From the NCBI RefSeq assembly GCF_017876295.1, contig NZ_JAGINT010000002.1:3658001-3722000 (forward strand): 64,000 nucleotides of DNA, written 5' to 3'. Below are positions 1 to 16,106 of the stretch, piece by piece. The position numbers and the translations under genes were made by a program. Positions within the stretch are counted from its first letter, which is position 1. The number at the start of each line of letters is the position of its first letter. Source of the DNA: Kribbella aluminosa. GTDB taxonomy: Bacteria; Actinomycetota; Actinomycetes; Propionibacteriales; Kribbellaceae. Below the pieces are notes generated by a model, which searched no databases, was not told the origin of the DNA, and saw only the letters and a program-made list of their open reading frames with translations.

Positions 1-1
1 C

Positions 2-1564
2 GGGTACCTGTCCGGCGACGAACTGCTCGGCAACTTCACCAGTCGCGCGATCGACGACTCCGAGTGGTGGGGCCTCACCTGGGTGCAGGCGTACGACGTG
101 ACCAAGAACCCGAAGTACCTCGACATGGCGGTGAAGATCGCGGAGTACGTCGAGGGCTACTGGGACCCGGGCTCCTGCGGCGGCGGCGTCTGGTGGAACG
201 CGGAACGTACGTACAAGAACGCCGTCACCAACGGCCTCTGGATCCGCCTCACCGCCGAACTGCACAACCGGATGCCGCACGACACCCGCTGGCTCGGCCG
301 CGCGCAGGAGGGCTGGAACTGGTTCACCAGCAGCGGCATGATCAACTCCGCCGGCCTGGTGAACGACGGACTGAAGGGCAACTGCCAGAGCAACGGTGAC
401 ACGGTCTGGAGCTACAATCAGGGCCTCGCGATCGGCGCCGGTCTCGAACTGTGGCGGGCGACCCACGACCCGAAACTGCTGACGACGGTACGCCGGCTCG
501 CGGACGCCGCGATCGCTCCGGGCGGACTCGTCACCGACGGCGTACTGGCGGAGTACTGCGATGCGCCGAGCCGGACGTGTGACGACAACGGCAAGCAGTT
601 CAAGGGCATCTTCATGCGGTACTGGACGGACCTCGCCGACACCACGCACGACCGCCGCTACACCGACTTCGTCGCCCAGCAGGCCGCCACGGTCTGGGAC
701 AACGACCGGGACGCGTCCGACCGGCTGGGGGAGCGGTGGTCCGGACAGACCCCGAACGTCTTCGACTGGCGTACCCAGGCCAGTGCACTGAGTGCGTTGC
801 TCGCCGCGGTACCGGCGAGGCCGCCGGTCCGGTCGTTGTCCGCGACAACCGATCCGGCATTGCCGGTCGTGATGCCCGCGACCGGTGCCGGCACTCATCT
901 GAAGGTGACGGTCGACGTCCAGGCAACCGGCCCGGCCGGCGATCGGATCACGGCGAACGTCCAAGCGGCCGCCCCGTCAGGCTGGACGGTGACCCCTGCG
1001 CGAGCGACCGTGACCCTGAAGACCCGCGGCAACGCCGTACCCGTGCACGACGCGGTGCAGCTCGACGTGACGATTCCCGCCGGTACGCCGGACGGTTCGC
1101 ACTCGGTGACCGCGACGGTGACGTCCGGTCCGCTGCTCTCGTACAGCACCCGGTCCGACATCCTGATCGCCCACAAGGCCGACTTCGACACCGGTACGTC
1201 CGCCGAGACCCCGTGGCTGCACGACGCCGACGGGTCGCAGAGCAACGGCGTACAGAACCGGTTCGCGGACGGGCACTCGTACTTCGTCTACCGCTTCCCG
1301 TTCCCGTCGGACGCGAAGTCTGCATCCGTATTGTTGACAATCGACAACGAGTTCCTCGTCCAACTCAGCGGCGACGGGCAGACCTGGACCACGGTCGCCA
1401 CCGAGACGAACCCGTACCACGACGGCCAGAACAAGGCCGACCGCACCTTCGACCTCACCCCGTACCTCGGCGCCGGCAAGGCCGGCTACGTCCGGATCTC
1501 CGACTCCTTCCCGGACGACGGCTGGGGCGGCCGCGTCTACCACGTCACCGCGACGTACAACTAA
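2..1564 (+). CDS. Glycoside hydrolase family 76 (alpha-1,6-mannanase type), C-terminal 520 residues
   Basis: The frame is open from base 2, so the 5' end, with any signal peptide, lies outside the window. The first ~250 residues resemble GH76: 'IDDSEWWGLTWVQAY' near residues 18-32 carries the Asp-Asp pair typical of the family, followed by a Trp/Cys-rich stretch with 'GSCGGGVWW' and 'DTVWSYNQG'. After about residue 270 come an Ig-like region resembling NEW3-type modules, then a ~130-residue beta-rich C-terminal domain. The family hydrolyses alpha-1,6-mannan; this one is probably extracellular. The GTG at 83 is internal. The stop overlaps the stop of the convergent TetR gene by 4 bases. GH76 is inferred by motif and overall resemblance; the exact substrate cannot be read from sequence. 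Confidence 0.85.
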   Translation, partial: GYLSGDELLGNFTSRAIDDSEWWGLTWVQAYDVTKNPKYLDMAVKIAEYVEGYWDPGSCGGGVWWNAERTYKNAVTNGLWIRLTAELHNRMPHDTRWLGRAQEGWNWFTSSGMINSAGLVNDGLKGNCQSNGDTVWSYNQGLAIGAGLELWRATHDPKLLTTVRRLADAAIAPGGLVTDGVLAEYCDAPSRTCDDNGKQFKGIFMRYWTDLADTTHDRRYTDFVAQQAATVWDNDRDASDRLGERWSGQTPNVFDWRTQASALSALLAAVPARPPVRSLSATTDPALPVVMPATGAGTHLKVTVDVQATGPAGDRITANVQAAAPSGWTVTPARATVTLKTRGNAVPVHDAVQLDVTIPAGTPDGSHSVTATVTSGPLLSYSTRSDILIAHKADFDTGTSAETPWLHDADGSQSNGVQNRFADGHSYFVYRFPFPSDAKSASVLLTIDNEFLVQLSGDGQTWTTVATETNPYHDGQNKADRTFDLTPYLGAGKAGYVRISDSFPDDGWGGRVYHVTATYN

Positions 1565-2130
1565 CGCGGACGCAGTCCGTCGACCAGTAGCGCGAGCAGA
1601 CGCTGTGTCTGCTCGCGCTGCTGGTCCGGGTCGGCGGCGATGACCGCGCCGGCCATCGCGGCGACGACATCACCCGGAGGTACGTCGGAGCGGAAGATGC
1701 CGGCCGCCGCGCCCGCCTGCATGAACGGCGCGACGGCGGCGGTGAGCCGTGCGCGGGTGTCGGTCTGCGTGACGGCGCCCGAGGCGACCATGGTGCGCAG
1801 ATCGTTGCCCATGGCCCGCTTCGACTCGACGAAGTTCGAGTAGCGGCGCATCCAGGCGAGCAGCGCCTCGTCCGCGGCTCCCGCGGCCGCCATCGCGGGG
1901 GCGACGTCGCACAGCCGGGTCAGCTCCTGGTGGTAGACCGCTCCGAGAAGCGCCTCCCGGTTCGGGAAGTGGCGGTACAGCGTGGCGACACCGACCCGGG
2001 CTCGCGCGGCCACCTTGTCCAGGGAGAGCCGGGCGGGCTCGCCGTCCCGCGCGGCCAGGGCAAGATCGGCCAGCTCGGCACCGGCGGCCGCCACCACCTG
2101 CGCGCGCTTGCGCGCCGCGTCCGCACGCAT
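1561..2130 (-). CDS. TetR/AcrR family transcriptional regulator
   Basis: A 189-residue protein, normal length for the family. The N-terminal helix-turn-helix lies around residues 37-62 with 'VGVATLYRHFPNREAL', the hallmark recognition helix. The rest is the alpha-helical ligand-binding and dimerisation domain. The gene is divergent from an aldo/keto reductase across 88 bases that contain two copies of a GGAGAAACCTCC element, so it very likely represses itself and the reductase. The ligand is unknown. The ATG at 2130 lies next to the first operator copy, so transcript and operator overlap closely. Confidence 0.92.
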   Translation of the reverse strand: MRADAARKRAQVVAAAGAELADLALAARDGEPARLSLDKVAARARVGVATLYRHFPNREALLGAVYHQELTRLCDVAPAMAAAGAADEALLAWMRRYSNFVESKRAMGNDLRTMVASGAVTQTDTRARLTAAVAPFMQAGAAAGIFRSDVPPGDVVAAMAGAVIAADPDQQREQTQRLLALLVDGLRPR

Positions 2131-2186
2131 AAGTGGAGAAACCTCCGGTTAGTGCTATCGTCGACGAAATGGAGAAACCTCCACTT
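2131..2186. promoter_or_regulatory. Probable TetR operator pair in a divergent promoter
   Basis: GGAGAAACCTCC occurs at 2135-2146 and again at 2171-2182; each copy is itself a partial palindrome (GGAG/CTCC). The outer flanks AAGTGGAG (2131-2138) and CTCCACTT (2179-2186) make the whole interval an inverted repeat with 36-base centre spacing. It sits exactly between the TetR gene and the aldo/keto reductase. The repeats are seen directly; binding by the neighbouring regulator is inferred. Confidence 0.72.
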
Positions 2187-2218
2187 CTGTCCACGACTCT
2201 ACCTGAGGACATCCGCTG

Positions 2219-3109
2219 ATGACATCGCAACGGCCCGGTGGCACCGTCAAGCTCGGGCAGCACGAGATCGCCAGGATCGGGTACGGCGCCATGCAGCTCG
2301 AACACCTGGACACGGCGGCCGCGAGCGCCGTACTGCGTCGCGCTGTCGAGCTCGGCATCAACCATCTCGACACGGCCTCGTTCTATGGGCACACGACCGT
2401 GAACGCGCACATCCGGGCTGCCCTGCATCCGTATCCCGGCGACCTCGTCATCGTGAGCAAGGTCGGCGCTCGCCGGGTGGACGCGCCGGTGCCGCTGACC
2501 TTGGCGCAACGCCCGGAGGACCTGCGCGAGCAGGTCCACCTCGACCTCACGTCGCTGGGCCTCGAACAGGTGCCGGTGGTCAACCTCCGCCGCGCCGACC
2601 AGGGCCCGGGCCTGATCGCCGAGGGGGACCAGGTCGTTCCGCTCGACGATCAGCTCGCCGAACTGATTGCCCTCCGCAACGAAGGGCTGATCGGCGCGAT
2701 CGGCCTGAGCAACGTCAGCACCGAGCAGCTGACGCAGGCGCTGCCGGCCGGGATCGTCTGCGTGCAGAATGTCTACAATCTGCTCGACCGCTCGTCCGAG
2801 GACCAGCTCGCGCTCTGCGCCGCGCACGACATCGCCTGGATCCCGTACTTCCCGCTCGGCTCGGCCTTCGCCGGCACGCCGCCGTTCGAACATCTCCCGG
2901 TCCCCACCGAGCACCCCGTCGTACGGCGCCGCGCCGACCGGTTGGCGACCACGCCGGCCGCCGTCTGCCTCGCCTGGATCCTTGCCCACGACAACCACAC
3001 GGCCCTGATCCCCGGCACCCGCAGCGTCTCCCACCTCGAGGACAACGTCCGTACGGCCGACGTCCACCTGGACGCCGACGCCCTCGCGGAACTCGACAAC
3101 CTGTCCTGA
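2219..3109 (+). CDS. Aldo/keto reductase family oxidoreductase
   Basis: A 296-residue TIM-barrel aldo/keto reductase. The catalytic Asp51 and Tyr56 are in 'HLDTASFYGH' and Lys81 in 'VSKVG'; the cofactor-side 'GAIGLSNVS' is present. Where most relatives have His in an H-R-P-D motif, this protein has 'NLRRAD', so the fourth tetrad residue is Arg124. The ATG at 2219 has TGAGGAC about 9 bases upstream. It is divergent from the TetR gene and probably derepressed when that regulator binds its ligand. Likely an NADPH-dependent carbonyl reductase of unknown substrate. Confidence 0.9.
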   Translation: MTSQRPGGTVKLGQHEIARIGYGAMQLEHLDTAAASAVLRRAVELGINHLDTASFYGHTTVNAHIRAALHPYPGDLVIVSKVGARRVDAPVPLTLAQRPEDLREQVHLDLTSLGLEQVPVVNLRRADQGPGLIAEGDQVVPLDDQLAELIALRNEGLIGAIGLSNVSTEQLTQALPAGIVCVQNVYNLLDRSSEDQLALCAAHDIAWIPYFPLGSAFAGTPPFEHLPVPTEHPVVRRRADRLATTPAAVCLAWILAHDNHTALIPGTRSVSHLEDNVRTADVHLDADALAELDNLS

Positions 3110-3125
3110 ACCGGGGGTGCGAGTT

Positions 3126-3398
3126 CTAGTCAGCGGACGCTCGGCGCGCAGTTCCGCGGTGCAGGGCCATGGTGGCCGCCGAGGGGTCGAGAAGGGACGT
3201 GCCGAGCCAGCATCCGGTGGTCACGTCCGTCAGCGACGGGTGCAGCGAATGACCGAGTACGTCGGTGTGCAGGAAGGTCCGACGTGCGCCGTCGATCAGC
3301 GGCCCGTAAGCCACCTCCTGGGCATGGGCAAGCCGCTCGACCAGCGGGCTTTCGCCAACCGCGCGGACTGCGCGTTGCGGCAGGGATCTCGGCGCCAC
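3126..3398 (-). pseudogene. DUF2231-like N-terminal fragment
   Basis: The reading 'LGHSLHPSLTDVTTGCWLG' matches the conserved start of DUF2231 membrane proteins, where the His/Pro-rich segment leads into the first membrane helix. Family members usually run to about 160-180 residues with four helices; this frame stops after 90, just after the first. Upstream of the GTG at 3398 the frame stays open and still looks coding ('AGRYLEGVAPRS'), so the true start may be further upstream. It is read as a degraded remnant on the chromosomal side of the element 1 junction. Confidence 0.5.
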
Positions 3399-3439
3399 GC
3401 CCTCAAGATAGCGTCCGGCCGCGGCCCCCGGAACACTGA

Positions 3440-3487
3440 AACGGCGGCCGACCTGGAGAGAAAGGCTCTCCGAGGCCAGCCGCCGTT
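3440..3487 (-). terminator. Probable original glnA terminator, now 9 kb away from glnA
   Basis: AACGGCGGC (3440-3448) pairs with GCCGCCGTT (3479-3487), with an inner GGAGAG/CTCTCC stem. It lies just left of attL, so joining attL to attR without the element would place it directly downstream of the glnA stop codon. The hairpin is seen; its role as the glnA terminator is inferred from position. Confidence 0.55.
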
Positions 3488-3505
3488 CAGCGGGCTATGC
3501 GACTC

Positions 3506-3529
3506 ACACGTCGTAGTAGAGCTCGAACT
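3506..3529. other. attL of element 1
   Basis: ACACGTCGTAGTA, one mismatched base, then AGCTCGAACT, repeated at 12640-12663. Read on the minus strand it encodes FELYYDV and a TGA stop, a copy of the glnA terminus. Confidence 0.85.
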
Positions 3530-3555
3530 GTTACCGCACCGTTGGCAGTCGTTGG

Positions 3556-3604
3556 TTGTCAGCGGCAATGTGCCCGTGACCTGGGCACTCACGGTTTGTC
3601 AGCG
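3556..3604. repeat. Candidate integrase arm-type sites
   Basis: TTGTCAGCG occurs at 3556-3564 and 3596-3604, 40 bases apart, within 100 bases of attL inside the element. Paired short direct repeats beside an att core are typical arm sites for tyrosine integrases. The repeats are seen; the role is inferred. The remaining bases up to 3769 hold no convincing gene. Confidence 0.4.
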
Positions 3605-3769
3605 TTGGCTGACGATGGTCTCAGACTGCTGTCTGACGGAACACGGACGGAACAGCGGAGCCGCGGGCCACCTCCGGATCGGTCTACCTCAGCCCCTAAA
3701 AACTGAGCGGCCCCCGCAGGTGCAGGAACACCGAGCGAGGGCCTCGACCGAACCCCAGGAGGTTCGACC

Positions 3770-3973
3770 GTGAGCAACAAGGTACCGAACGAGGGACTAC
3801 CGAGCTACAACTTCGAGACCGCGACCGAGAGCGAGCGGTGGGCGTACGACCAGGGGTACGAGACCGGCTGGCAGGCTCGCAACACGGAACTGCTGGACAG
3901 TCTCGACAGCGCCATGCAACGGCTGGTCGACGAGATGCGGCGCACGCTCGCGGACATGCGGGCGCAGTCGTGA
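3770..3973 (+). CDS. Small element protein with FETATE motif
   Basis: A 67-residue acidic, helical protein of no known function. The GTG start is preceded by AGGAGG at 7 bases. Residues ~14-32 carry 'YNFETATESERWAYDQGYE', a motif that recurs in two tiny genes at the far end of element 2. It opens a three-gene operon in which each stop overlaps the next start (GTGA). The operon runs head-on into the tape-measure operon. No catalytic or DNA-binding motif is visible. Confidence 0.72.
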   Translation: MSNKVPNEGLPSYNFETATESERWAYDQGYETGWQARNTELLDSLDSAMQRLVDEMRRTLADMRAQS

Positions 3974-4131
3974 ACGGCAAGGTGACCGTGACCCGCGGAG
4001 AGTTGGACCGGGTACGAGCGCTGATCGTCGAGGCTATCGGCATGCTCGAGGAGCTGATCGAGCGGCAGGAGACGCGGTCGGTCGAGACCGATGAGAAGGG
4101 CTGGCCGCTGCTCGGGGGTGACGAGTCGTGA
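3970..4131 (+). CDS. Small hypothetical helical protein
   Basis: A 53-residue product starting at GTG 3970, whose GTGA overlaps the stop of the preceding gene. It is rich in Glu, Arg and Leu ('IVEAIGMLEELIERQE'), consistent with a short amphipathic helix or coiled coil. It ends in GTGA, which again starts the next gene. Too short to classify; it is called a gene because of the overlap chain and consistent codon use. Confidence 0.6.
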   Translation: MNGKVTVTRGELDRVRALIVEAIGMLEELIERQETRSVETDEKGWPLLGGDES

Positions 4132-4235
4132 TCGCCGATCAGATCCGGGTATCCATGCCTCTGCTCGAGCAGATCCTGATCTGCGGTGGATCGTTCGTCC
4201 TGGGCTGGTGTGTGGGGTACTGGACCGCCAGGTGA
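4128..4235 (+). CDS. Tiny single-helix membrane protein
   Basis: A 35-residue frame from GTG 4128 to TGA 4233-4235, overlapping the preceding stop by 4 bases. Residues ~12-30 ('LLEQILICGGSFVLGWCVGY') form one hydrophobic segment followed by a basic end, as in small holin-like or anchor peptides. It closes the three-gene operon and is followed at once by a strong terminator hairpin. Function unknown; the overlap and membrane segment are the support. Confidence 0.55.
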   Translation: MIADQIRVSMPLLEQILICGGSFVLGWCVGYWTAR

Positions 4236-4258
4236 CCCGAGCCCTGTAATGCTCTCAG

Positions 4259-4287
4259 ACCGCCACCAGTGACCTACTGGTGGCGGT
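4259..4287. terminator. Bidirectional terminator between convergent operons
   Basis: ACCGCCACCAGT and ACTGGTGGCGGT form a perfect 12-bp stem with a 5-base loop (GACCT). It lies between the small-protein operon and the 3' end of the tape-measure gene and can serve both directions. Confidence 0.85.
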
Positions 4288-4294
4288 TCTGCGT

Positions 4295-6613
4295 TCAGAG
4301 GTTGAGTGCCCGGTTGCCGGTGGTGACCTTGTAGGCCTTGAGTGCCCGCAGGATCTCCCTACCGGTCCCCACGGGGTCACCGCCGACAGGGACGGTGACA
4401 TAGATGTTGATGTCTCCGCCGTGCTGGCGGTTCAAGGCGGCCGGGATCACCGCCTCACCCTTGTGGAGATAGGCGAACTGGTCCTCGGGGACGTAGTTGG
4501 TGCCGTGCTTGTAACCGCCACTGCGGTTCCAGCCGGCGGGGCCGGAACCGTACCTCGAGATCGTGTACTTGATCGCGGCGTAGATGTTCGCGAACGGGTC
4601 GTAGATCCCGCGGCTGCGGTACGCGCCCGCGTAGGCGTTGAAGGTCGGGCCGATGGTCTGCATCAGGCCGATCGACGGCGTACCGGCCTTGGCGTTGGAG
4701 TCCCACAGGTTGATCGCCCGCGGGTTACCGCCGGACTCCTGGTTCATCCGCCGCAGCAGGGAGCCCAGCCACGACGACGGAGCGCCCGCAGCAGTGAGGG
4801 CAGCGAGGGCGACCGCGCTCCACCGCTGCACACCCGAACCGGCTCCCGCAGCGCTCGAGGCACTTGCGGAAGCTTGGGTGAGGGTCTTGGCGAACATGGC
4901 CGCGAACGGCCCGGCCATCGACGCCGCATGTGCCTCGACCGCCTTGGCGGTACCGGCGGTGCTGGGGATCGCGGTCCGCATGTGCAGGCCTGGGCTTCCG
5001 CCGGTGGCGAAGCCGGGGATGATCGTGGCGGTGCCGTTGTTGACCGACGCCATCGCGTGATCGCCGTACTTCTTCGTCGAACTGGTCTTGATCACCCATT
5101 CGCCGTTGGACAGCGCCCACACCCCGGCCGTGTCGGAGGTGCCGGTGCCATGACCTCGGATCGGTCCACCTGTCGCGTTGCGGCCAGGCGTCGAGCTGCC
5201 GGGCAGCATGGTCCGTGAGATGCCACCGGAGGTGTAGGTGAGCGCCACCGTGACGGTCTGGTCCTTCACCCCGGCCAGCGCGTTGTTCACCGAGTCGCGG
5301 AAGGTGTTGAAGTGGCTCGCTGCCGCCTTCAGTGCGGGGCCGATCTTCGGTACCCAGCCGAAGGCGTTGGCGGCGCCGTTGATCATGGCGCCGACGAAAT
5401 CGAGGAAGCGGGCGACGACGAATGCCAGCGCCGCTCGAGCGGGTTCCTTGATGGCGTTGAAGACGCCCTTCAGGATCGCGCCCCAGGCCTGCACCTTCTG
5501 CCACACCGTCGTCACCACGAACACGAAGGCGTTGAAGATCGGGTGCAGGAAAGTGTTCCACCAGGACAACGCGGTGTCCCTGATGGCGTTGAAGACGGTG
5601 ATGACGATGGTGCGGAAGGTCTGCGAGTGCTTCCAGGCGTAGATCAGGCCGACAACCAGCAGGCCGAGGGCGATGACTACGAGACCGATCGGGTTGGCGG
5701 TCAGGACGGCGTCCAGGACGCCCTGCACCACGGTCCAAGCCTTGATCCCGGCGACCAGGATCACGATCCCCTTCGCGACCTTGCCGACCATATCCTTGTG
5801 GGTCGACATAAATCCGGTGATCCTCGTGACGAACGGGATCACCTTGTCACGCAGCATCGCGACGAACTTGTTCAGGATCGGGAGGATCTGCGCCCCGAAC
5901 TGGACCTTCAGGCCGTCCAGGGTCGCGTTCCACTCCCGCTGGCCGGCCTTCGACTTCTTCAGCGCGTCGAGGTTGGCGCCGGTCAGGGTGAGACCGTACT
6001 TGTCGGTCTGCTTCATCAGATCTTCGATGCCGGTCTTGCCCTTGTTCAGGAACGGGATCATGTCCGCGCCCGACTTCCCGAACAGCTTCATGGCCAGCGC
6101 GGTCTTCTCCGCGCCGTTCGGCATCGCCTTGAACTTGTCCGCCAGCTCAGGCAGGACAGTGGTCATCGGCAAGATGTGGCCGTGAGCGTCACGGAAGTTG
6201 AAGCCCAGTTGCAGGATCATCGCCGAGGCCTTCTTGCCGCCGTCGTTGGACGCGACCAGCGCCTTCTCGAACTTGCCGGTGGACTTCGAGAGAGTGTCGA
6301 AGCCCACGCCGGACTGTTCCGCCGCGAACCGGAGCCGGGATGCCTGTTCGGCTGTGCCGCCCATGACCCGTTGCAGGCCCATGACCTGCCCGCCGACTTC
6401 CTTGAACTTGTCGACCGAGGCCTTACCGAAGCCGACGACAGCAGCACCTACGGCCACGGTGGCAGCGATGCCGGCCGCCTTGAACTTGTCGAACCCGCCG
6501 CTCGAGCGCTGCGCCTGGTCGCCGGTATGCCGCAGCTCACCGGCGACCTTCTTCAGCGTGTCCGAGGCCCGGTCGTTCGCGATGATGTCCATCGCGATTT
6601 TGGAAATGGGCAT
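4295..6613 (-). CDS. Phage tail tape-measure protein with C-terminal lytic transglycosylase domain
   Basis: A 772-residue protein. The N-terminus ('AMDIIANDRASDTLKKVAG') is the usual tape-measure start; hydrophobic segments around residues 285-380 and Gly/Ala-rich regions follow. Near residues 590-710 lies a soluble lytic transglycosylase-like fold: 'MNQESGGNP' with the catalytic Glu, 'GLMQT' and 'YAAIKYTISRYG'. Such proteins set tail length in siphophages and cut peptidoglycan on entry. It is the last gene of the minus-strand operon, 30 bases after the capsid gene, yet no tail tube, chaperone or baseplate gene accompanies it. Shorter than many tape measures. Confidence 0.88.
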   Translation of the reverse strand: MPISKIAMDIIANDRASDTLKKVAGELRHTGDQAQRSSGGFDKFKAAGIAATVAVGAAVVGFGKASVDKFKEVGGQVMGLQRVMGGTAEQASRLRFAAEQSGVGFDTLSKSTGKFEKALVASNDGGKKASAMILQLGFNFRDAHGHILPMTTVLPELADKFKAMPNGAEKTALAMKLFGKSGADMIPFLNKGKTGIEDLMKQTDKYGLTLTGANLDALKKSKAGQREWNATLDGLKVQFGAQILPILNKFVAMLRDKVIPFVTRITGFMSTHKDMVGKVAKGIVILVAGIKAWTVVQGVLDAVLTANPIGLVVIALGLLVVGLIYAWKHSQTFRTIVITVFNAIRDTALSWWNTFLHPIFNAFVFVVTTVWQKVQAWGAILKGVFNAIKEPARAALAFVVARFLDFVGAMINGAANAFGWVPKIGPALKAAASHFNTFRDSVNNALAGVKDQTVTVALTYTSGGISRTMLPGSSTPGRNATGGPIRGHGTGTSDTAGVWALSNGEWVIKTSSTKKYGDHAMASVNNGTATIIPGFATGGSPGLHMRTAIPSTAGTAKAVEAHAASMAGPFAAMFAKTLTQASASASSAAGAGSGVQRWSAVALAALTAAGAPSSWLGSLLRRMNQESGGNPRAINLWDSNAKAGTPSIGLMQTIGPTFNAYAGAYRSRGIYDPFANIYAAIKYTISRYGSGPAGWNRSGGYKHGTNYVPEDQFAYLHKGEAVIPAALNRQHGGDINIYVTVPVGGDPVGTGREILRALKAYKVTTGNRALNL

Positions 6614-6643
6614 CCCGCCCCGCCTTTCTGTAGCGGAGTGCGG

Positions 6644-8062
6644 TTACAGGGTCGGGGTGACCAGGCCGGTGCCGCTGATCAGCGCCAGCGACTTGCCGTA
6701 GCGGTCGGGGATGAACGCCGAGTAGCTGAGCGCCCGGAACAGCACAGACGCCTGATCCGCGTACGTCGCCTCGAAGCTCTCCAGCGCCAACGGGGACTCG
6801 TACAGGTTGCAGTCGTCCGCCCGCAACACCCAGACGGCATCCTGGTTGGTGCCCGCGCCGAGGTTGGTCGGGATGTTCGGGTCCACGTACACCGGCAGGC
6901 CCAGCAGCACCCCGGCCTGACCCTGCGCGACCACTTCACCAGCGACACCCAGCGGGTTGAACGCGCCACCCTGGGATAGGACAAGCGGACGGCTGCTGGA
7001 GTCGAGCGCCTCCAGGATCCACGACCAGCGCTGCGGGTGCATGACGATCGCTGTCGGCGGCATGAACCGCTGGGTGGCGACCGAGTTGACCCCCCGGACG
7101 ATCGCGTTGTACAGCGAGTTTGCTGGCGTGGTGGCGTCGATCACCTTCGGGGTGGCCGTCGTGTACGCGACGGTCGTGATGCCGGCCGCGTTCGCCAGTC
7201 CGCGGAGCTGGCCCGAGGCGCCCGAGCCAGTCAGCACCTGCACGTCGAGCGTTCGGGCGTAGTCGGCGGACAGGTCACCGAGGACCACCCGGTCGAACGG
7301 GATGCCGGACTGCTGCAGCAGCTGCAGGCTCACGATCTGCTTTCCGGCGACGGTCGTAATGCCCGAAGACACCGCATTGGTCGTGGCCGCCGTGTCCTGG
7401 ACAACGGTGTTCTGCGTCGCCTGCACGGCGGTCGAGGTGCCGGAGGCAACGGTCGGCAGGTTGATCGAGCTGACGCCGGACGGAAGCGGCTCCTTGTGCA
7501 TCAAATCCGCCGTCACCCGCCCCGCCCTGGCCAATGCCACGAACTCATCCACCAGCCACGCGGGCGGCGCGAACTGGCCACCGGTGCCGGCGCCCGTACT
7601 CATGTCACCGACGCGGGTCTCCAGGCCACGGGCCGCGGTGTTGCGCCGCAGACGGTCGGCGGCATCGGCGTCACCGAGACGAGCGGATCGCATGTCTCGG
7701 AAGAACGATGGGCTGTCCGGGACCTTGTGCGGGTCGTTGTAGACCGCGGCGTCGGTGACGTAGCCGCGACCCTCGTGCGCCCTGATCTCGACGTTGTGCT
7801 TCGCAGTCGCGTCGTTGCGGGTCTCGATCTCTTCGAGTTCAGCGATCCGCTCGTCGATCTTGGACAGGTAGGCCCGGCCCTCAGTGGCAGCGCGCTTCAA
7901 CTGCCGAGATTCCGGACTGCCGTCGCCGCCGCGGCGCTCCATGTCACGAAGGCAGGCGGCGACGGCATCGCGCCGGGCCAGCACGTAAGGCAGGAGCGGT
8001 TGGCCCGGCGTCCAGTTGTTCACACCGCGCTCTTCCAGATACTGGTCGATGAGGCTGCTCAT
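6644..8062 (-). CDS. HK97-family major capsid protein
   Basis: A 472-residue protein. Residues ~25-90 are a charged helical N-terminal region like the delta/scaffold part of HK97-type capsids. From ~residue 150 on the sequence has the capsid fold pattern, with 'PFDRVVLGDLSADYARTLD', 'HPQRWSWILEALD' and 'LLGLPVYVDPNIP'. The ATG at 8062 is preferred over upstream in-frame starts because GGAG lies ~10 bases before it and the extra 32 residues look non-coding. No prohead protease, portal or terminase gene adjoins it. It could build a small capsid or be a remnant. Confidence 0.85.
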   Translation of the reverse strand: MSSLIDQYLEERGVNNWTPGQPLLPYVLARRDAVAACLRDMERRGGDGSPESRQLKRAATEGRAYLSKIDERIAELEEIETRNDATAKHNVEIRAHEGRGYVTDAAVYNDPHKVPDSPSFFRDMRSARLGDADAADRLRRNTAARGLETRVGDMSTGAGTGGQFAPPAWLVDEFVALARAGRVTADLMHKEPLPSGVSSINLPTVASGTSTAVQATQNTVVQDTAATTNAVSSGITTVAGKQIVSLQLLQQSGIPFDRVVLGDLSADYARTLDVQVLTGSGASGQLRGLANAAGITTVAYTTATPKVIDATTPANSLYNAIVRGVNSVATQRFMPPTAIVMHPQRWSWILEALDSSSRPLVLSQGGAFNPLGVAGEVVAQGQAGVLLGLPVYVDPNIPTNLGAGTNQDAVWVLRADDCNLYESPLALESFEATYADQASVLFRALSYSAFIPDRYGKSLALISGTGLVTPTL

Positions 8063-8314
8063 GGGTGGGTCTCCAGAGGGGAGGTCGCCGACAAGGGGCG
8101 GCGAAAGGTCATTGGGGGCTCTAGCCGCCGTGGACCGGGAGATCTCTCGACCGGACAACCTCGGGACTACTCACCGAGCACTGACGCACAAGAGCGGAGA
8201 ACCAAGGTCCAGCGGGCCGAACCTGCCGGGAATCGGCGGCCCGCCTTACGGCGAGGGACCGACAGCAGCACAGGTGCGTGGCGCTGGAGCTCGACTTCCA
8301 CTCCACGAACGACT
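8063..8314. other. Gap upstream of the capsid gene where packaging genes would be expected
   Basis: About 250 bases without a supportable gene. It holds a GC-rich inverted pair (GGGCCG near 8215, CGGCCC near 8241) and is where terminase and portal genes sit in related prophages, so a deletion here is possible. Promoter elements are not obvious. Confidence 0.4.
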
Positions 8315-8328
8315 CTACAGCTGTAGAG
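8313..8328. repeat. 16-bp perfect palindrome at a gene end
   Basis: CTCTACAGCTGTAGAG is perfectly palindromic and covers the TAG stop of the 85-aa gene. It may be an operator or part of a terminator. Confidence 0.5.
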
Positions 8329-8572
8329 GGTTCTCGGGCCACTCTGCGGACTCGGCAAGCCGCTCGACCTCGGCATCATGCTCGCGTTCGTGCGCGTGCA
8401 GGGTGGCGATCTCCTCGGTATCGAGCCGCGCGCACTCGATCGCGAGGCCCGCCAGCAGCCGGCCAAGCCACGGCGTGTTCGCTTCGGTGGCGCAGGTCGC
8501 CAGTGCTCGCTTGTCAGACGCCGACAACGAACCGAGTGCCTCCTCGAGTGCCTTGCTCATGGTCCTGCTCAT
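8315..8572 (-). CDS. Hypothetical element protein (85 aa)
   Basis: An acidic, helical 85-residue protein with no recognised domain. The ATG at 8572 overlaps the preceding stop (ATGA), the arrangement seen through most of this operon. The sequence ends in 'AEWPENPLQL' with a palindrome over the stop codon. Element-specific function unknown. Confidence 0.65.
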   Translation of the reverse strand: MSRTMSKALEEALGSLSASDKRALATCATEANTPWLGRLLAGLAIECARLDTEEIATLHAHEREHDAEVERLAESAEWPENPLQL

Positions 8573-8832
8573 CGTGGGTTCCTTTCGCGGTACTGCTTGA
8601 GCTTGCGGGCACGGTCGCCGGACTGGGGATCGTGGTAGCGACGGCGCGAACGCTCCGCACTGGCGGCACGGCAGGCCTCACAAGGCGTCTCCCCGGCCTT
8701 CCTGTGCCGCTTGTAGGCCGCGAACGTGCCGCAGGGCTGCAGGGGTCGCGTTGAGGGCACCAACGAAGCAGGCGGGCATTCAGGGCATCCCCCCTCTAAT
8801 GCTGGGGAGAAAAAAGTTTGACTGCGGGTCAT
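8569..8832 (-). CDS. Small Cys-containing, Arg-rich actinophage-type protein
   Basis: An 87-residue product if started at ATG 8832. It contains 'CGTFAAYKRHRKAGETPCEAC' split by a basic helix, a pattern common in actinophage small proteins that probably bind zinc or nucleic acid, and a very basic C-terminus. Upstream in-frame residues look non-coding, so the inner ATG is chosen, although its ribosome site is weak. It overlaps the next gene by 4 bases. Confidence 0.62.
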   Translation of the reverse strand: MTRSQTFFSPALEGGCPECPPASLVPSTRPLQPCGTFAAYKRHRKAGETPCEACRAASAERSRRRYHDPQSGDRARKLKQYRERNPR

Positions 8833-8858
8833 GGCGCGGTCACCAATCCAAAACTCAG

Positions 8859-9032
8859 TCACTCCGGGGAGGGCGTGTGGTCGCAGCTCGCGCAGCACCG
8901 GCGGCCGGACAGCCACCACTTCGTTCCGCAGGCGCCGGCTGTGCCCTGGCAGTGTCGGCAGGATTCACCCGGCTCCTTCGCGATGGCCTCCGCGAGCTTG
9001 CGGGCAGCAACGGCGTGCAGTCGGTAGGTCAT
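8859..9032 (-). CDS. Small zinc-binding protein (57 aa)
   Basis: Starts at ATG 9032, overlapping the preceding stop (ATGA), with GGAGG 5 bases upstream. Two cysteine pairs, 'CRHCQG' and 'CCASC', suggest a zinc ribbon. The N-terminal half is a basic helix. Role unknown; it may bind DNA or a phage protein. Confidence 0.68.
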   Translation of the reverse strand: MTYRLHAVAARKLAEAIAKEPGESCRHCQGTAGACGTKWWLSGRRCCASCDHTPSPE

Positions 9033-9565
9033 GACACCTCCGCAGTGGCGCAGCCGGGATGCCTGCCGGTGTGGGCGTACCACGCACCTGAGTCGATCGG
9101 GGTGCCGCATCCACTGCACATCCCAACGTCTCCTGTTGATGGCGTCTGTATGTCTGTATGTCTGTCTGTCTGTGTTGGCGTGACGTTGGTACCAACGTTG
9201 GGTTGGTTGTTGGCAGCAACATCACGCTCGTCCTTGGCACGCTTGCGCCGTTGTCTCTCGCGCTCGTCGTCACGGTGCTTGAGCTGTACGAACAGGGACT
9301 GGCGGAACACGTCACCGTGGTGTTCGACCACGTACGCGTCACCCTCATCACGCCAGAAGCCGTGAGCAACCAGATCCTTCGCTGCCTGCTCCCAGTCAGC
9401 AGACCCGGCGAACCTGCGCACCAGGTGCTTGAGGATCCGCATCTCCATGTCCTCGAGCCGGTACAGGTAGTGGAGTGCTTCGGTGTGCGTGCGGACCGCG
9501 GCGTCGGACAGACCGAAGTCTGCGCACTGGTCGAAGAACTCGACGCCGTACTTCGCCCACGTCAT
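9029..9565 (-). CDS. Phage replication-initiator-like / DNA-binding protein
   Basis: A 178-residue protein whose N-terminal ~95 residues ('AKYGVEFFDQCADFGLSDAA', 'HLVRRFAGS', 'GFWRDEGDAYVVEHHGDVFR') match a type widespread in actinobacterial prophages, resembling the winged-helix part of replication organisers. Then come a basic helix, a Thr/Gln/Asp-rich linker encoded by a TCTG/TATG microsatellite (9145-9174), and a C-terminal zinc-binding segment ('CSGCG', His, Cys). ATGA overlaps on both sides tie it to the operon. The replication role is inferred. Confidence 0.68.
   Translation of the reverse strand: MTWAKYGVEFFDQCADFGLSDAAVRTHTEALHYLYRLEDMEMRILKHLVRRFAGSADWEQAAKDLVAHGFWRDEGDAYVVEHHGDVFRQSLFVQLKHRDDERERQRRKRAKDERDVAANNQPNVGTNVTPTQTDRHTDIQTPSTGDVGMCSGCGTPIDSGAWYAHTGRHPGCATAEVS
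9145..9174. repeat. TCTG/TATG microsatellite inside a coding linker
   Basis: Repeated TCTG and TATG tetramers encode a T/D/Q/H-rich linker on the minus strand. Because the unit is 4 bases, length changes would shift the reading frame of the C-terminal zinc segment. Confidence 0.7.
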
Positions 9566-9774
9566 CTCTTGACCCGCTCACGGAAGATGGCGCCTTCCTC
9601 CTGGCACAAGCAGCACAGGTCGCCGAGTTCAGGAAGGCTGAGCAACCAGCCGCGGCCGGCTCTCGACCAAGGCGCGTTGGGTGCGATCTCGTGCACGAGT
9701 ACGTCATGACCTTTGCCTGTGACGACAGCAAGGCCTGCTGCCTCATCGACGGTCGCCCACACGATGGCCTTCAT
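9562..9774 (-). CDS. Hypothetical element protein (70 aa)
   Basis: Begins at ATG 9774 (ATGA overlap with the preceding gene) with GGAGG upstream. 'MKAIVWATVDEAAGLAVVT' looks like a beta-rich start, and 'GDLCCLCQEE' near the end could bind a metal. No family recognised. Confidence 0.62.
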   Translation of the reverse strand: MKAIVWATVDEAAGLAVVTGKGHDVLVHEIAPNAPWSRAGRGWLLSLPELGDLCCLCQEEGAIFRERVKR

Positions 9775-10070
9775 GACGCCTCCGCGAGTACCTGGCGAAC
9801 GTCGTCGGCGTACGCGTCTGCGCGGCTCGACAGCAACAGTTCCGCGTGCCGGCGGCACCGTTCGGCGTCTACACGCAGTCGCTCGTCACGTTCGGCCAGC
9901 TCTGCCGCGGTCGCACGGCCGTTGAAGTCGGTCGTTCGTGGACGCGCCCACTCGAGAGCCTCGGCCCGGTCGAAGAACGTGGCGGCCAACGATTGGCTCA
10001 GGAGGTCCTGGAAGAAGCGCAGTCGTGTCTGCTCGGCGTCCACTATGTAGGTGGATTGGATGCGCCTCAC
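9771..10070 (-). CDS. Hypothetical helical element protein (99 aa)
   Basis: GTG start at 10070 overlapping the preceding stop (GTGA), with AGGAGG upstream. The protein is mostly helical and charged with several Arg and Glu heptads ('AAELAERDERLRVDAERC'), suggesting a coiled coil. Not assigned to a family. Confidence 0.62.
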   Translation of the reverse strand: MRRIQSTYIVDAEQTRLRFFQDLLSQSLAATFFDRAEALEWARPRTTDFNGRATAAELAERDERLRVDAERCRRHAELLLSSRADAYADDVRQVLAEAS

Positions 10071-10396
10071 CGGAGCGCCTCCTTGAGGAGTACGTGGATC
10101 TCGCCGGTGATCTCGTCGCTCGCGCTCAAGAATTCGATGCGCTCGCGGAAGGACTCAAGCGCTGCCAAGTTCTCGCGGTTGTGCTGGGCGATCTCTTCGG
10201 CTGTCCGGCCGCCGGTGAAGTCACCGGGGCGCAGGATGTCCGCAGCCGCCTCGCGGGCATGGTGCAGCAGGTCCCGGGCTGTCGCCTCGTTCAGGGCGGC
10301 TTGGAGGCCGGACTGGGGGCGAGGTCGTGTAGCTTGGTGTCGAGTCACGTCGCCGTTGCTCGCAGGGGCCGCGTTAGCGCGGCTCTTGCCATTCAT
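10067..10396 (-). CDS. Hypothetical helical element protein (109 aa)
   Basis: Starts at ATG 10396 by ATGA overlap with the excisionase-like gene; longer in-frame starts read antisense of intergenic DNA and are rejected. Low-complexity N-terminus, then helices with 'GGRTAEEIAQHNRENLAAL'. Function unknown. Part of the single minus-strand transcription unit. Confidence 0.6.
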   Translation of the reverse strand: MNGKSRANAAPASNGDVTRHQATRPRPQSGLQAALNEATARDLLHHAREAAADILRPGDFTGGRTAEEIAQHNRENLAALESFRERIEFLSASDEITGEIHVLLKEALR

Positions 10397-10590
10397 GCCG
10401 CGTCCGGTCCGCTGGCGGCCTGGCGCGCCTCGGCCAACCAGGCTTCCACGTCCTCGACGGCGTACAGCACGCGACGGCCAACTTTGAAGCTCTTCGGCCC
10501 CTTGTTGACATGACGCCAGAATCTGACGGTCTCCGCGGGCGTCCTGCATACCTCGGCAACCTCGGCGGTCGTCATGAATCGGTCTGCCAT
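10393..10590 (-). CDS. Excisionase-like / AlpA-type helix-turn-helix protein
   Basis: A 65-residue winged-helix protein: 'TTAEVAEVCRTPAETVRFW' is the recognition unit, followed by 'GPKSFKVGRRVLYAVEDVEAWL', typical of MerR-like excisionases. It is the first gene of the minus-strand operon and sits beside an array of TACTCG half-sites. Probably directs excision and may also activate or repress the divergent promoters. Confidence 0.85.
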   Translation of the reverse strand: MADRFMTTAEVAEVCRTPAETVRFWRHVNKGPKSFKVGRRVLYAVEDVEAWLAEARQAASGPDAA

Positions 10591-10601
10591 GGTCATCCAA
10601 T

Positions 10602-10625
10602 CGAGTAGGTTTCTCTTCCTACTCG
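10602..10625. promoter_or_regulatory. Operator-like inverted repeat at the excisionase promoter
   Basis: CGAGTAGG (10602-10609) and CCTACTCG (10618-10625) with an 8-base spacer. The core TACTCG/CGAGTA also forms the palindrome at 10666-10683 and single half-sites near 10648 and 10687, so one repressor may control both divergent promoters. Confidence 0.6.
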
Positions 10626-10659
10626 CACGGTAGGTTGCGTGAGATACCGAGTACAACCG

Positions 10660-10687
10660 TTGACATACTCGAAGATTCGAGTAACGT
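10660..10687 (+). promoter_or_regulatory. Promoter with embedded 18-bp operator for the regulator-integrase operon
   Basis: TTGACA at 10660-10665 and TAACGT at 10682-10687 with a 16-base spacer. The spacer is almost filled by the perfect palindrome TACTCGAA-GA-TTCGAGTA (10666-10683). The -10 box ends 7 bases before the ATG at 10695, which predicts a leaderless message repressed by a protein bound over the promoter. Confidence 0.7.
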
Positions 10688-10694
10688 ACTCGTC

Positions 10695-11405
10695 ATGAGA
10701 GTGTCGTTTGGATTCGGCGGCTGGGTTGCGGTCGACGATGTGGGCCTACCCGGTGTGCTGTACGTGCGCATGCGTGATGCGCAGGAGCGCCTACGTATCA
10801 GCGAGTTCTACATCGATGCGAGCCACGAGACAGCGGCCCTTGAGGCGAGGGATCTTCGAGACGTGCCGCTCGCGCAGATCGAGGAGTTCATCAATCTTGA
10901 GGCCGACCTTCTTCGCCACGGGATGAATCTTCCGGCGCCGGACCTATCAACGCTGGCCTCGCATTTCAGCTCCACCTTCGGCAATCTCGAGCGGCAGATT
11001 GCCGAAGGTGACTGGGTGGTCTCCAGCTTCGTCAGTCAGTACCTACCTGATGGTGTCGACCGGGCCGTCGTATGCCGCGATCGCCTGTTGACTGACGAAG
11101 ACGCTGAAGCGGCCAAGGGATCTCCGCGCGTGATGCGGGTCGCCCCTGCCGCACGGGCGAAGTGGCGAGGACTCCGTAAGAGCGATCGGGAGTTCCGGCT
11201 GCAGGCCGGCCCCGCGGACGGCCTCACTGACGAGTTCCTCCGAGAGGTGGCGCGTGCGTACAGTGCGGCGATTCTTCGGGGGGAACGGCCGAACGTAGCG
11301 ATCGCCGAGCAGACGGGTTATCCGCTGAAGTCGGTACAGCGATGGGTCTACACCGCGCGGCTCCGCCGGATCATGCCGCGCGGACAGCAGGGGAGGGCTG
11401 GCTGA
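10695..11405 (+). CDS. Element regulator with C-terminal helix-turn-helix (236 aa)
   Basis: The ATG at 10695 is chosen because the promoter predicts a leaderless transcript starting there; the 20 upstream in-frame codons lie in the promoter. The N-terminal two thirds are unclassified. Residues ~185-230 ('RGERPNVAIAEQTGYPLKSV' then 'QRWVYTARLRR') form a helix-turn-helix of the type found in actinobacterial prophage and integrative-element regulators. Its stop overlaps the integrase start (TGATG). It is a good candidate for the protein that binds the TACTCG palindrome, though this is inference. Confidence 0.7.
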   Translation: MRVSFGFGGWVAVDDVGLPGVLYVRMRDAQERLRISEFYIDASHETAALEARDLRDVPLAQIEEFINLEADLLRHGMNLPAPDLSTLASHFSSTFGNLERQIAEGDWVVSSFVSQYLPDGVDRAVVCRDRLLTDEDAEAAKGSPRVMRVAPAARAKWRGLRKSDREFRLQAGPADGLTDEFLREVARAYSAAILRGERPNVAIAEQTGYPLKSVQRWVYTARLRRIMPRGQQGRAG

Positions 11406-12604
11406 TGGGGTTCACCAAGGATCTGTGGAACACAACGGTCGCGGACGCCGAGGGCAACAAGACGAAGGTTCCGACTGCGCGGTTCGGCAAGGGGAAGCGC
11501 TGGCTGGCCGTATGGCACGAGGACGGCGGGCGGGAGCGGACGAAGGCGTTCGCCAAGAAGATCGACGCTGACCGCTACTGGCCGACACAGGAGACAGATG
11601 TCAGTCGCGGGATGTACATCACCCCCGCGGACGCGAAGGTCACGGTCGACCAGTGGTGCACCACGTGGCTCAAGGGGTACGCCACTCGGCGCGCTTCGAC
11701 GGTCCGGCAAGCGAAGACGCACGTAGCCCTGATCACGAAGGAGTTCGGGGACCTGCCACTCAACGTCGTACGGCCGTCCGCGATCCGCAGTTGGTGTGCT
11801 TCGCTCAAGAGCGACGGATACGAGCAGAGCTACGTGTACGCGCTGCATGCCCGGTTGTCGCAGGTGATGAGCGACGCCGTACACGACAACCTGTTGCCGA
11901 AGAACCCGTGCAGCCGTCGTACGTCGCCACCGGCAGGCAAGCAGCGCCCCTACTGTGCGACCACCGAGCAGGTGTGGGCGCTGTACGACGCGTTCCCGAA
12001 GCACCTGCAGCCCGCGGTACTCCTGGGCGCGTTCGTCGGTCTGCGGACCGCTGAGGCGTGCGGCCTCCGGACGGAGGATGTGGACTTTATGCGCGGGATC
12101 GTGACGCCTGCCGTGCAGTGGCCGGCGCAGGACTTGAAGACCGAGGCGTCCAAGACGCCGATCCCGATCCCGTCCCAGCTGACGCTGCAGCTTTCGGCGG
12201 CGGTCGCGCGGTGGGGGAGCGAGTGGCTCGTGACGAACGGCACCGAGGGACAGGCGTCCCCGTGGTCGATCGATCGGGCGATGCGGTCGGTCCGGAAGCG
12301 GCACGTCAAGCCGCTGCCTCAGGACCACGCGAAGGACTGCGGGGGCTGCCTGGTGCCGGGGCTGCCGGAGGGCTTCCGGTTCCACGATCTACGGCACTAC
12401 CTGGCATCACTGCTGATCAACTCGGGCGCTGACGTGAAGGTCGTGCAGGCACGCATCTGGCATGCCAGCGCGAAGACGACGCTCGACACCTACGGGCACC
12501 TGTGGCCCGACGCAGACGAGTCGACCCGCGCCGCCGTTGGTGCGGTGCTGGCGGCACGGGTCGAAGGTCTCACGGAACAGCCACGGAACGAGGGGCGGTC
12601 ATGA
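11405..12604 (+). CDS. int: Tyrosine recombinase / phage integrase
   Basis: A 399-residue site-specific recombinase. Catalytic residues are in place: Arg214 in 'GLRTAEACGL', His327 and Arg330 in 'HDLRHYLAS', His353 in 'IWHAS' and Tyr363 in 'DTYGHLWP'. The N-terminal part (arm-binding and SAM-like core-binding domains, residues ~70-175) is normal. It starts at ATG 11405, coupled to the regulator, and ends 35 bases from attR in glnA, as expected for an integrase acting on the glnA 3' end. Confidence 0.95.
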   Translation: MGFTKDLWNTTVADAEGNKTKVPTARFGKGKRWLAVWHEDGGRERTKAFAKKIDADRYWPTQETDVSRGMYITPADAKVTVDQWCTTWLKGYATRRASTVRQAKTHVALITKEFGDLPLNVVRPSAIRSWCASLKSDGYEQSYVYALHARLSQVMSDAVHDNLLPKNPCSRRTSPPAGKQRPYCATTEQVWALYDAFPKHLQPAVLLGAFVGLRTAEACGLRTEDVDFMRGIVTPAVQWPAQDLKTEASKTPIPIPSQLTLQLSAAVARWGSEWLVTNGTEGQASPWSIDRAMRSVRKRHVKPLPQDHAKDCGGCLVPGLPEGFRFHDLRHYLASLLINSGADVKVVQARIWHASAKTTLDTYGHLWPDADESTRAAVGAVLAARVEGLTEQPRNEGRS

Positions 12605-12637
12605 TTGCTCCGCCGCAGGTCAGAGGCCTATTGCTGG

Positions 12638-14062
12638 CTACACGTCGTAGTACAGCTCGAACTCGTGGGGGTGGGGGCGGAGCTGGATGGGGGCGATCTC
12701 GTTGTCGCGCTTGAGGTCGATCCAGGTCTCGATCAGGTCCGAGGTGAAGACGTCGCCTTCGAGCAGGAACTCGTGGTCGGCCTCGAGGGAGTCGATCACG
12801 GCCGGGAGCGAGGTGGGGACCTGCGCGATGCCCGCGTGCTCCTCCGGCGGCAGCTCGTAGAGGTCCTTGTCGACCGGGTCGGCCGGCTCGATCTTGTTGC
12901 GGATGCCGTCCAGGCCGGCCAGCAGCTGGGCCGAGAAGGCCAGGTACGGGTTGGCCGACGGGTCCGGGCAGCGGAACTCGATGCGCTTGGCCTTCGGGTT
13001 CGAGCCGGTGATCGGGATCCGGATGCAGGCCGAGCGGTTCCGCGACGAGTAGACCAGGTTGACCGGCGCCTCGAAGCCCGGCACCAGGCGGTGGTACGAG
13101 TTCACCGTCGGGTTGGTGAACGCCAGCAGCGACGGGGCGTGCTTGAGCAGGCCGCCGATGTACCAGCGGGCCATGTCGGACAGGCCGCCGTACCCGGACT
13201 CGTCGTAGAACAGCGGGTCGCCGTTACTCCACAGCGACTGGTGGCAGTGCATGCCGGAGCCGTTGTCACCGAAGATCGGCTTCGGCATGAAGGTCGCGGT
13301 CTTGCCGGCCTTCCAGGCGGTGTTCTTGACGATGTACTTGAACTTCATCACGTCGTCGGCGGCCTTGAGCAGCTCGTCGAAGCGGAAGTTGATCTCCGCC
13401 TGACCCGCCGTACCGACCTCGTGGTGGGCGCGCTCGACGATCAGGCCGGACCGCTCCAGCGCCAGCGTGATGTCGTCGCGCAGCTCGCCGAAGTGGTCGG
13501 TCGGTGCGACCGGGAAGTAGCCACCCTTGTAGCGGACCTTGTAGCCGCGGTTGCCGCCGTCCTCGACCCGGCCCGTGTTCCAGGCACCGGCGATCGAGTC
13601 GATCGAGTAGTGCGCGGAGTTCGCCTTGGTCTCGAACCGGACGTCGTCGAAGACGTAGAACTCGGCCTCCGGCGCGAAGAACGCGGTGTCCGCGATGCCG
13701 GTCGACTTCAGGTACTCCTGGGCCTTCCGGGCGATGTTGCGCGGGTCCCGCGAGTACGCCTCGCCGGTCAGCGGGTCGTGCACGAAGAAGTTGACCACAA
13801 GCGTCTTGGCGCTGCGGAACTCGTCGATGAACGCGCTGGTCGGGTCCGGCAGCAGCTTCATGTCCGATTCGTGGATCTGCTGGAACCCGCGCACCGACGA
13901 ACCGTCGAAGGCCAGGCCCTCCTCGAAGACCTCGGGACCGAACGACGACACCGGGACGGTGAAGTGCTGCATGATGCCCGGAAGGTCGCAGAAGCGGATG
14001 TCGACGATCTCGACGCCCTCGTCCTTGACGTAGGCGAGCAGCTCCTCCGCGCTGGAAAACAT
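12638..14062 (-). CDS. glnA: Glutamine synthetase, type I (GlnA)
   Basis: A 474-residue cytoplasmic enzyme forming glutamine from glutamate, ammonia and ATP as a dodecamer. '[10 protein letters not shown]', '[10 protein letters not shown]', '[12 protein letters not shown]' and '[20 protein letters not shown]' are GSI active-site signatures. '[10 protein letters not shown]' near residue 400 carries the adenylylation tyrosine, so activity is likely controlled by GlnE. AGGAG lies 5 bases before the ATG and a complete GlnR box lies upstream. The final codons are the att site of element 1, so the original downstream terminator is now at ~3.4 kb. Confidence 0.98.
12640..12663. other. attR of element 1 (inside the glnA 3' end)
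   Basis: Partner of attL at 3506-3529, with a single C/G difference at 12653. It covers the last glnA codons and the first base of the stop codon. Confidence 0.85.
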
Positions 14063-14111
14063 ACGTACTCCTAGGGTGGCTCAGAGATTCATCTGAACGT
14101 AGGGCCTGCCG

Positions 14112-14149
14112 GTTTCTCCGTCGTGACCCTGATGTTTCGCGGATGTTAC
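14112..14149 (-). promoter_or_regulatory. GlnR box upstream of glnA
   Basis: On the minus strand the sequence reads GTAAC-n6-GAAAC-n6-GTCAC-n6-GAAAC, exactly matching the four-part GlnR consensus known from Streptomyces and mycobacteria. It lies 50-90 bases before the glnA start, a position suited to nitrogen-dependent control. The match is seen; binding is inferred from the known consensus. Confidence 0.88.
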
Positions 14150-14251
14150 GCCCAGCGTGTCCGCGCTGACCCACTGGTGCACGGCGATTACGCCCTGAGA
14201 TATCGCGGCCCCCACAGGGCCGTCCCCGAACGTGTCCGTAGGCTAGCCATC

Positions 14252-15993: not shown

Positions 15994-16106
15994 GTCGTCT
16001 GTTCCCCTGTAATCCCGTCCTGGTCGCACTCTAAGGGCAACCAGCCTCCCCACGGCGCATGTCTGAACAGTTCAACTGCCCGACATGCCTCTTGGTTACA
16101 GTTTGG

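Follow-up and report, generated by a model that had tools for sequence, protein, structure and literature searches.

A 9.1-kb integrated element in the genome of Kribbella aluminosa (8.9 Mb) appears to have exchanged the transcription terminator of the glutamine synthetase gene glnA for one of its own, with a replacement that would end the glnA RNA and largely shield the integrase gene, int, from antisense transcription; we assign this reading a probability of roughly 0.55. It builds on sequence-level observations in a 64-kb stretch of DNA (the window, meaning the whole stretch analysed): a displaced hairpin, matching att cores, convergent genes and a codon-improbable hairpin in int; to these are added hairpins beside glnA in most related elements. 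Integration into the last glnA codons would have shifted the native terminator to the far (attL) end, and the element would have brought a substitute at the attR side, such that glnA transcripts would end soon after the gene and the attR-side hairpin would largely insulate int from antisense transcription. In other genera, the substitute would be a stand-alone hairpin of the attP region, lying between glnA and a set of tandem repeats or past the repeats near the int end. In the Kribbella group, where int lies 33 nt from glnA, the stand-alone hairpin has seemingly been lost (half of it may persist), and the antisense strand of the final int codons would supply a hairpin instead.

More tentatively, and at somewhat less than even odds, the final int codons may carry a double message, encoding the integrase C terminus and holding arm DNA while specifying a glnA stop on the other strand, within a glnA-targeting integrase family that swaps terminators across the Propionibacteriales and so insulates both partners. 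For an element inserted at the 3′ end of an important gene, both the gene's protein and its orderly transcription have to be preserved. If the attachment region also brings a terminator, which in one lineage would lie among the int codons, an element could sit behind a strong, nutrient-controlled promoter and not be transcribed backwards, and the 18 elements at glnA in this comparison (4 from Kribbella, 14 from elsewhere) make a natural series for testing such a swap.

The element and its attachment sites

The features discussed below are as follows (window coordinates and strand).

3438..3488, minus: hairpin assigned as the native glnA terminator, displaced, left of attL (fold energy; alignment to genomes G005 and G022)
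3506..3529, minus: attL core, the last glnA codons, 23/24 nt the same as attR
3635..3656, plus: left-arm tandem repeats GACGGAACA, 11-bp spacing, putative integrase arm sites, shared across the group
11405..12604, plus: int, tyrosine integrase gene (Pfam PF00589, 5.6e-15; phrog_1, 5.1e-54), convergent with glnA
12521..12564, minus: 15-bp hairpin in the int 3′ coding end (-32.9 kcal/mol), putative substitute terminator or 3′-end hairpin for glnA
12571..12591, plus: right-arm tandem repeats CACGGAAC, 11-bp spacing, within int, in 4/4 group members
12613..12628, minus: possible remnant (one half) of an earlier substitute terminator, GGCC-CTGACCTGCGG in glnA sense, matched by eye
12638..14062, minus: glnA, glutamine synthetase (474 aa), whose 3′ end the att core rebuilds
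12640..12663, minus: attR core within the glnA 3′ end, 23/24 nt the same as attL
14112..14149, minus: tandem GlnR-type boxes 5′ of glnA, the sole tandem match in the window with both strands searched

Direct att repeats of 24 nt bound the element (window 3530-12639) and span the last glnA codons, which places the full-length glnA on the attR side. With flanking att repeats, an adjoining integrase gene and a restored glnA frame, the element fits the class of site-specific tyrosine-integrase elements that occupy the 3′ ends of genes. The glnA product is 87-98% identical across 36 other genomes of the genus. The initial annotation had glnA aimed at int on the opposite strand across 35 bases; gene coordinates confirm the convergence and the closeness, and the distance between the two stop codons measures 33 nt.

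Among the element genes, 6644-8158 encodes a capsid protein, 4295-6613 a tape-measure protein with a transglycosylase domain and 10396-10656 an excisionase-like protein. Pfam and PHROGs scans of ten element ORFs gave no clear portal or large terminase, and the element is on these grounds a phage remnant or a satellite.

That att cores restore codons is already well known: tyrosine-recombinase elements rebuild the 3′ end of their target gene in this manner, as in tRNA genes and, for phage 21, in icd. The glnA element is alike in that its core spans the last glnA codons and restores the frame, but the elements at glnA seemingly bring a terminator besides the codons. Gay et al. reportedly described in 1986, to judge by their title, the insertion of Tn7 at the glmS terminator. 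Tn7 also targets a conserved host gene at its terminator region, but this transposon has no att core to restore the gene. Among the papers listed by our literature searches, which cover few subscription journals, none describes an attB or prophage site of this kind in glnA, and the terms glnA, glutamine synthetase and terminator are absent from the main text of a Mycobacterium abscessus prophage paper (PMC8092301).

The displaced glnA terminator

The hairpin to the left of attL, which had been annotated at 3440-3487 as the glnA terminator before integration, is present at 3438-3488 and bears out that assignment. Folded as minus-strand (glnA-sense) RNA, it reaches -40.5 kcal/mol (z -7.1), a value equalled in 0/200 shuffles; folded over 52 nt, the minus strand (-40.9) is stronger than the plus strand (-32.2), and just one of the 9840 such windows across the 64 kb (39157-39208) is stronger still. 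In the empty site the glnA stop codon would fall at 3504-3506, with the stem beginning 16 nt downstream. The region 3438-3529 aligns at 80.6% and 79.6% to the DNA 3′ of glnA in the unoccupied genomes G005 and G022, respectively, and homologues of the neighbouring aldo-keto reductase gene (2219-3109) lie convergent 3′ of glnA in unoccupied G005, G022 and G017. This synteny, together with the G005 and G022 alignments, supports the left flank being native glnA-downstream DNA.

Comparison across the genus points the same way. The glnA flank was read in 37 same-genus genomes, 4 occupied and 33 unoccupied (G058 belongs to the int search and lies outside this flank set); in the outer group, loci L062-L064 yielded no glnA end, and L060, L061 and L065-L069 are outside the count. 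All 33 unoccupied genomes carry a hairpin of -34.7 to -55.3 kcal/mol starting 2-34 nt past the glnA stop, with a mean of -42.3 compared to -27.2 (sd 4.5) in 481 random windows from the same loci. The tail of the window's hairpin is U-poor (3/8), yet it resembles the host terminators: among the 33 hosts, the 8-nt tail holds on average 2.76 T on the glnA-sense strand versus 1.64 on the opposite strand (Wilcoxon P 0.0008), a comparison in which the main stem was missed in about 5/33. In each of the other three occupied Kribbella genomes, a hairpin (-31.7 to -36.6 kcal/mol) also accompanies a second end of glnA, 4.4-10.6 kb away. Stable, GC-rich and directly 3′ of the gene in the empty site, the hairpin at 3438-3488 is, as judged from sequence, the native glnA terminator, displaced by about 9 kb upon integration.

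General-purpose searches added little around these features. Rfam gave nothing reaching its gathering score in window 2000-16000, and a scan of 1-16000 for sigma-70 promoters and U-rich terminators, which is ill-suited to GC-rich actinobacteria, listed neither hairpin and showed no excess over shuffled sequence (7 terminators versus 6.1; 0 promoters versus 1.0). A 90-aa ORF occupies 3126-3398 of the left flank on the minus strand, past the displaced terminator on the glnA strand; blastn matches of the flank stop short of it.

Related elements at glnA

A close int was found in 4/38 genomes of the genus, every one of them at glnA. An int search across 391 genomes of the order and 341 of one family within it, two partly overlapping sets, gave 15 further relatives at 41-61% identity. 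In 14/15 of these distant relatives, int and glnA share a contig and converge at distances of 0.07 to 12 kb; the exception, G528, has them on separate contigs and is left out of the attR comparison. A second copy of the glnA core was found on the same contig in 11/15 (6.8-47 kb away), which supports insertion in these cases, on another contig in two and not at all in two, and the reversed pattern searched as a control gave no matches.

The strongest hairpin within the first 130 nt past glnA measures -34.6 to -46.6 kcal/mol in 12/14 relatives, and 10/14 lie beyond the 5% quantile set by random windows (-35.6). Measured against 23-25 local windows per locus, nine hairpins have no equal and those of G370, G362 and G172 have one each. 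The remaining two are weak: G170 reaches -30.6 (3/25 local windows as strong) and G556 -29.5 (5/25). Twelve of the 14 thus place a hairpin of at least -34.6 kcal/mol near the element end that faces host transcription, as an element-borne insulating terminator would be placed. On the attL side, each of 13 second core copies has a hairpin behind it (-29.1 to -42.9 kcal/mol; -35.6 or stronger in 9/13).

Hairpin position differs among the relatives. It lies between glnA and the tandem repeats in nine (G362, G172, G145, G170, G137, G529, G425, G487 and G394) and later, nearer the int end, in G302, G216, G370 and G544; in G556 the best hairpin, a weak one, lies within int as in the window. An alignment of the nine shows changes on both sides at 5/19 pairs (43/500 shuffles) and a covariation score attained in 0/500 shuffles, although these shuffles ignore relatedness and the G170 hairpin, of different sequence, aligns poorly. 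Tandem repeats spaced 11 or 12 bp apart lie no more than about 110 nt past the glnA stop in 13/14 (none in G544), which makes the stretch 3′ of glnA probably element DNA, their presence having been counted without a chance control. The repeat motifs differ among lineages (CACGGAAC, ATTCCGCA, AGTCCGCA and GCCCACAC across the window and loci L118-L146 near glnA). At L118 (G302), the hairpin spans the int stop codon at about 57-98 nt past the glnA stop, so that one arm is coding and the other noncoding, a further and separate instance of overlap between a hairpin and the int end. At L123 and L125 (G145 and G137), int sits 8-12 kb from attR, with other DNA filling the interval.

Within Kribbella, the group of four comprises the window's element and those of G012, G001 and G009. 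The left-arm repeat GACGGAACA is present as two copies at the same place in the window, G001 and G009 and as one exact and one diverged copy in G012. The right-arm repeats (12571-12591) match those of the left arm (3635-3656), and both possibly represent integrase arm sites, which they resemble. Locus L072 (G009, glnA-sense offsets 1568-5960) holds a decayed, 4.4-kb copy of the element at glnA, in which int is reduced to its C-terminal part, an internal deletion is present and both att ends are retained. The int tree clusters the window's gene with those of G012 and G001 (87/99), but 6/18 inner branches are open, and the succession of steps proposed here should be taken as a conjecture.

Wider searches extended the set little. 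An exact search of IMG/VR with the right-arm repeat gave no further close group members, and int relatives there numbered 28 at 20-30% identity; the genome_contigs int search returned one close match (Kribbella turkmenica) and one at 24%. A remote match, L037 (33%), was rejected as a glnA-site element: it shares the strand of glnA at a distance of 8.2 kb, and the glnA flank looks unoccupied.

A hairpin in the 3′ coding end of int

In the Kribbella group, the candidate substitute lies inside int itself. Its arms (12521-12535 and 12550-12564) fall within the final 84 nt of the gene, 74-117 nt past the glnA stop, and the hairpin forms in glnA-sense RNA in 4/4 members. It is the top antisense 46-nt window of the gene in each, the G009 remnant included (-31.8 to -34.8 kcal/mol), and the next-best antisense window of the three full-length genes (the window's, G012 and G001) is 6-11 kcal weaker (-24.2 to -25.6). 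By the 130-nt measure used for the relatives, the values are -36.3 in the window, -38.0 in G012, -36.5 in G009 and -34.5 in G001, near the 5% quantile of random windows, and 1/24 local windows is as strong as the hairpin of the window's element.

Whether such a structure would terminate transcription is a matter of inference, since its U-tract is poor, with 3 U in 8 nt after the core stem and 1 U in 10 after the longer stem; by the longer-stem tail score, just 1/33 host terminators is equally weak. Streptomyces terminators are described as very stable hairpins followed by just 3-4 U in 10 nt; their energies have medians of -23.6 to -25.95, and their loops a median of 4 (PMC12207403), compared with a loop of 14 nt in the int hairpin. 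The int hairpin may end glnA RNA, or could protect the RNA end left by Rho termination even if it is no terminator.

Written in GC-rich codons, the encoded peptide TRAAV...VLAARV comes close to a palindrome by itself, a property that speaks for a rather improbable alternative, namely that the hairpin is a coding by-product or a DNA-level attP constraint and that glnA read-through is ended mainly by Rho. Permuting synonymous codons with the peptide preserved argues otherwise: the observed antisense strength was reached in just 0-0.6% of trials (5, 0, 6 and 2 of 1000 for the window, G012, G001 and G009), a stability beyond that set by the coding sequence, and sampling codon usage instead gave 3/300 for the window and 1/300 for G012. 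The same permutation on the int-sense strand gave 87, 0, 97 and 12 of 1000, making the glnA-sense strand the more exceptional one except in G012, where both are 0. Nor is the hairpin a general property of integrase ends. None of 42 distant integrase-like ORFs has one as strong in its last 135 nt (nearest -32.0 versus -32.7; the ORFs come from 44 loci, two of which gave none, and at least one, from L045, is plainly no integrase end), and the int ends of 11 correctly read glnA-site relatives outside the group reach -18.4 to -26.5 (a count that excludes G137, with no int ORF obtained from G370 and G544).

Several observations nevertheless favour a by-product or DNA-level origin. At the 52-nt scale, hairpins of equal strength are not rare, with 38/9840 windows spread over 26 places of the 64 kb. 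Third-position variation is low in the stem (2/10), the loop (1/4) and the 3′ side (1/9) relative to upstream (30/56), and the low variation continues past the stem into the tandem repeats; a DNA-level constraint is therefore possible, and part of the conservation of the int end may serve DNA binding, as the repeats resemble arm sites. One stem pair reads U.G, C-G, U.G and U-A across the four sequences, but covariation in these few sequences is not significant (366/500 shuffles as high), and the four probably share one common ancestor and so do not count as independent cases. In the decayed G009 copy, the stem has 1 unique change in 30 positions and the upstream int remnant 6/168, too few to tell their retention apart.

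A further reading, to which we give equally little credence, is that glnA transcription, its terminator gone, extends antisense across int, most strongly when nitrogen is limiting, and holds integrase levels down. It gains from the absence of a significant hairpin in the 33 nt between the convergent stops (12560-12637 folded, z 0.23), from the poor U-tract of the nearest candidate stop, the int hairpin, and from the perfect tandem GlnR box before glnA (GTAAC-n6-GAAAC-n6-GTCAC-n6-GAAAC). The initial annotation had expected antisense transcription over int once the terminator was displaced, an expectation that found no support: the end of int forms a strong, codon-improbable hairpin in glnA-sense RNA, and most glnA-site relatives carry a hairpin in the corresponding stretch. 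Because the element and its relatives appear to bring a replacement hairpin, the idea of antisense silencing of int is weaker than first thought and would require read-through beyond the hairpin 74-117 nt past the stop. Rho would also be expected to cut untranslated antisense RNA; in Mycobacterium tuberculosis, antisense transcription is described as widely raised upon Rho loss (PMC5379054). The proposed nitrogen control retains its GlnR boxes, which resemble the tandem arrangement with GAAAC b-sites described for Streptomyces venezuelae glnA (PMC3087709), but its basis is modest, because the same source gives an induction of only 1.9-fold in S. venezuelae under nitrogen starvation, so that even complete read-through would be a modest nitrogen signal.

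A role in the int mRNA itself, as a stabilizer or nuclease target with a logic like that of lambda sib, is very improbable: the hairpin does lie at the 3′ end of that mRNA and folds strongly in sense (-30.5 in the window, -35.9 in G012), but codon permutation reaches the sense-strand strength more often than the antisense one in the window, G001 and G009 (87, 97 and 12 of 1000), one pair that is G.U in glnA-sense RNA becomes an A-C mismatch in int mRNA (window and G001), and ribosomes translating the stem would presumably open it. In lambda sib retroregulation, a hairpin lies beyond attP, outside the int gene, and is parted from int when the phage integrates. The glnA element is alike in that integration parts a hairpin from a gene across the att site; here, unlike lambda, the displaced hairpin is that of the host gene and the other remains inside int. 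A sib-type retroregulation was rejected on this account, as the stem lies within the int coding sequence. We know of no case in which int codons serve as a hairpin.

The terminator swap proposed here has a partial counterpart in Tn916, whose terminator T1 was shown by experiment to insulate element genes from host promoters (PMC11658703). As in the proposed system, a terminator near the end of an integrated element blocks host transcription from entering element genes. T1 blocks sense transcription, whereas the transcript blocked here would be antisense to int; also unlike T1, the site is fixed at the glnA 3′ end and the hairpin lies within the int coding sequence.

A trace of the stand-alone hairpin may persist at the start of the Kribbella attR. 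By eye, the glnA-sense sequence GGCC-CTGACCTGCGG resembles the left arm of the stand-alone hairpins 3′ of glnA in G145, G137, G529 and G425 and could be its remains, a weak indication given that similar words also occur in host terminators.
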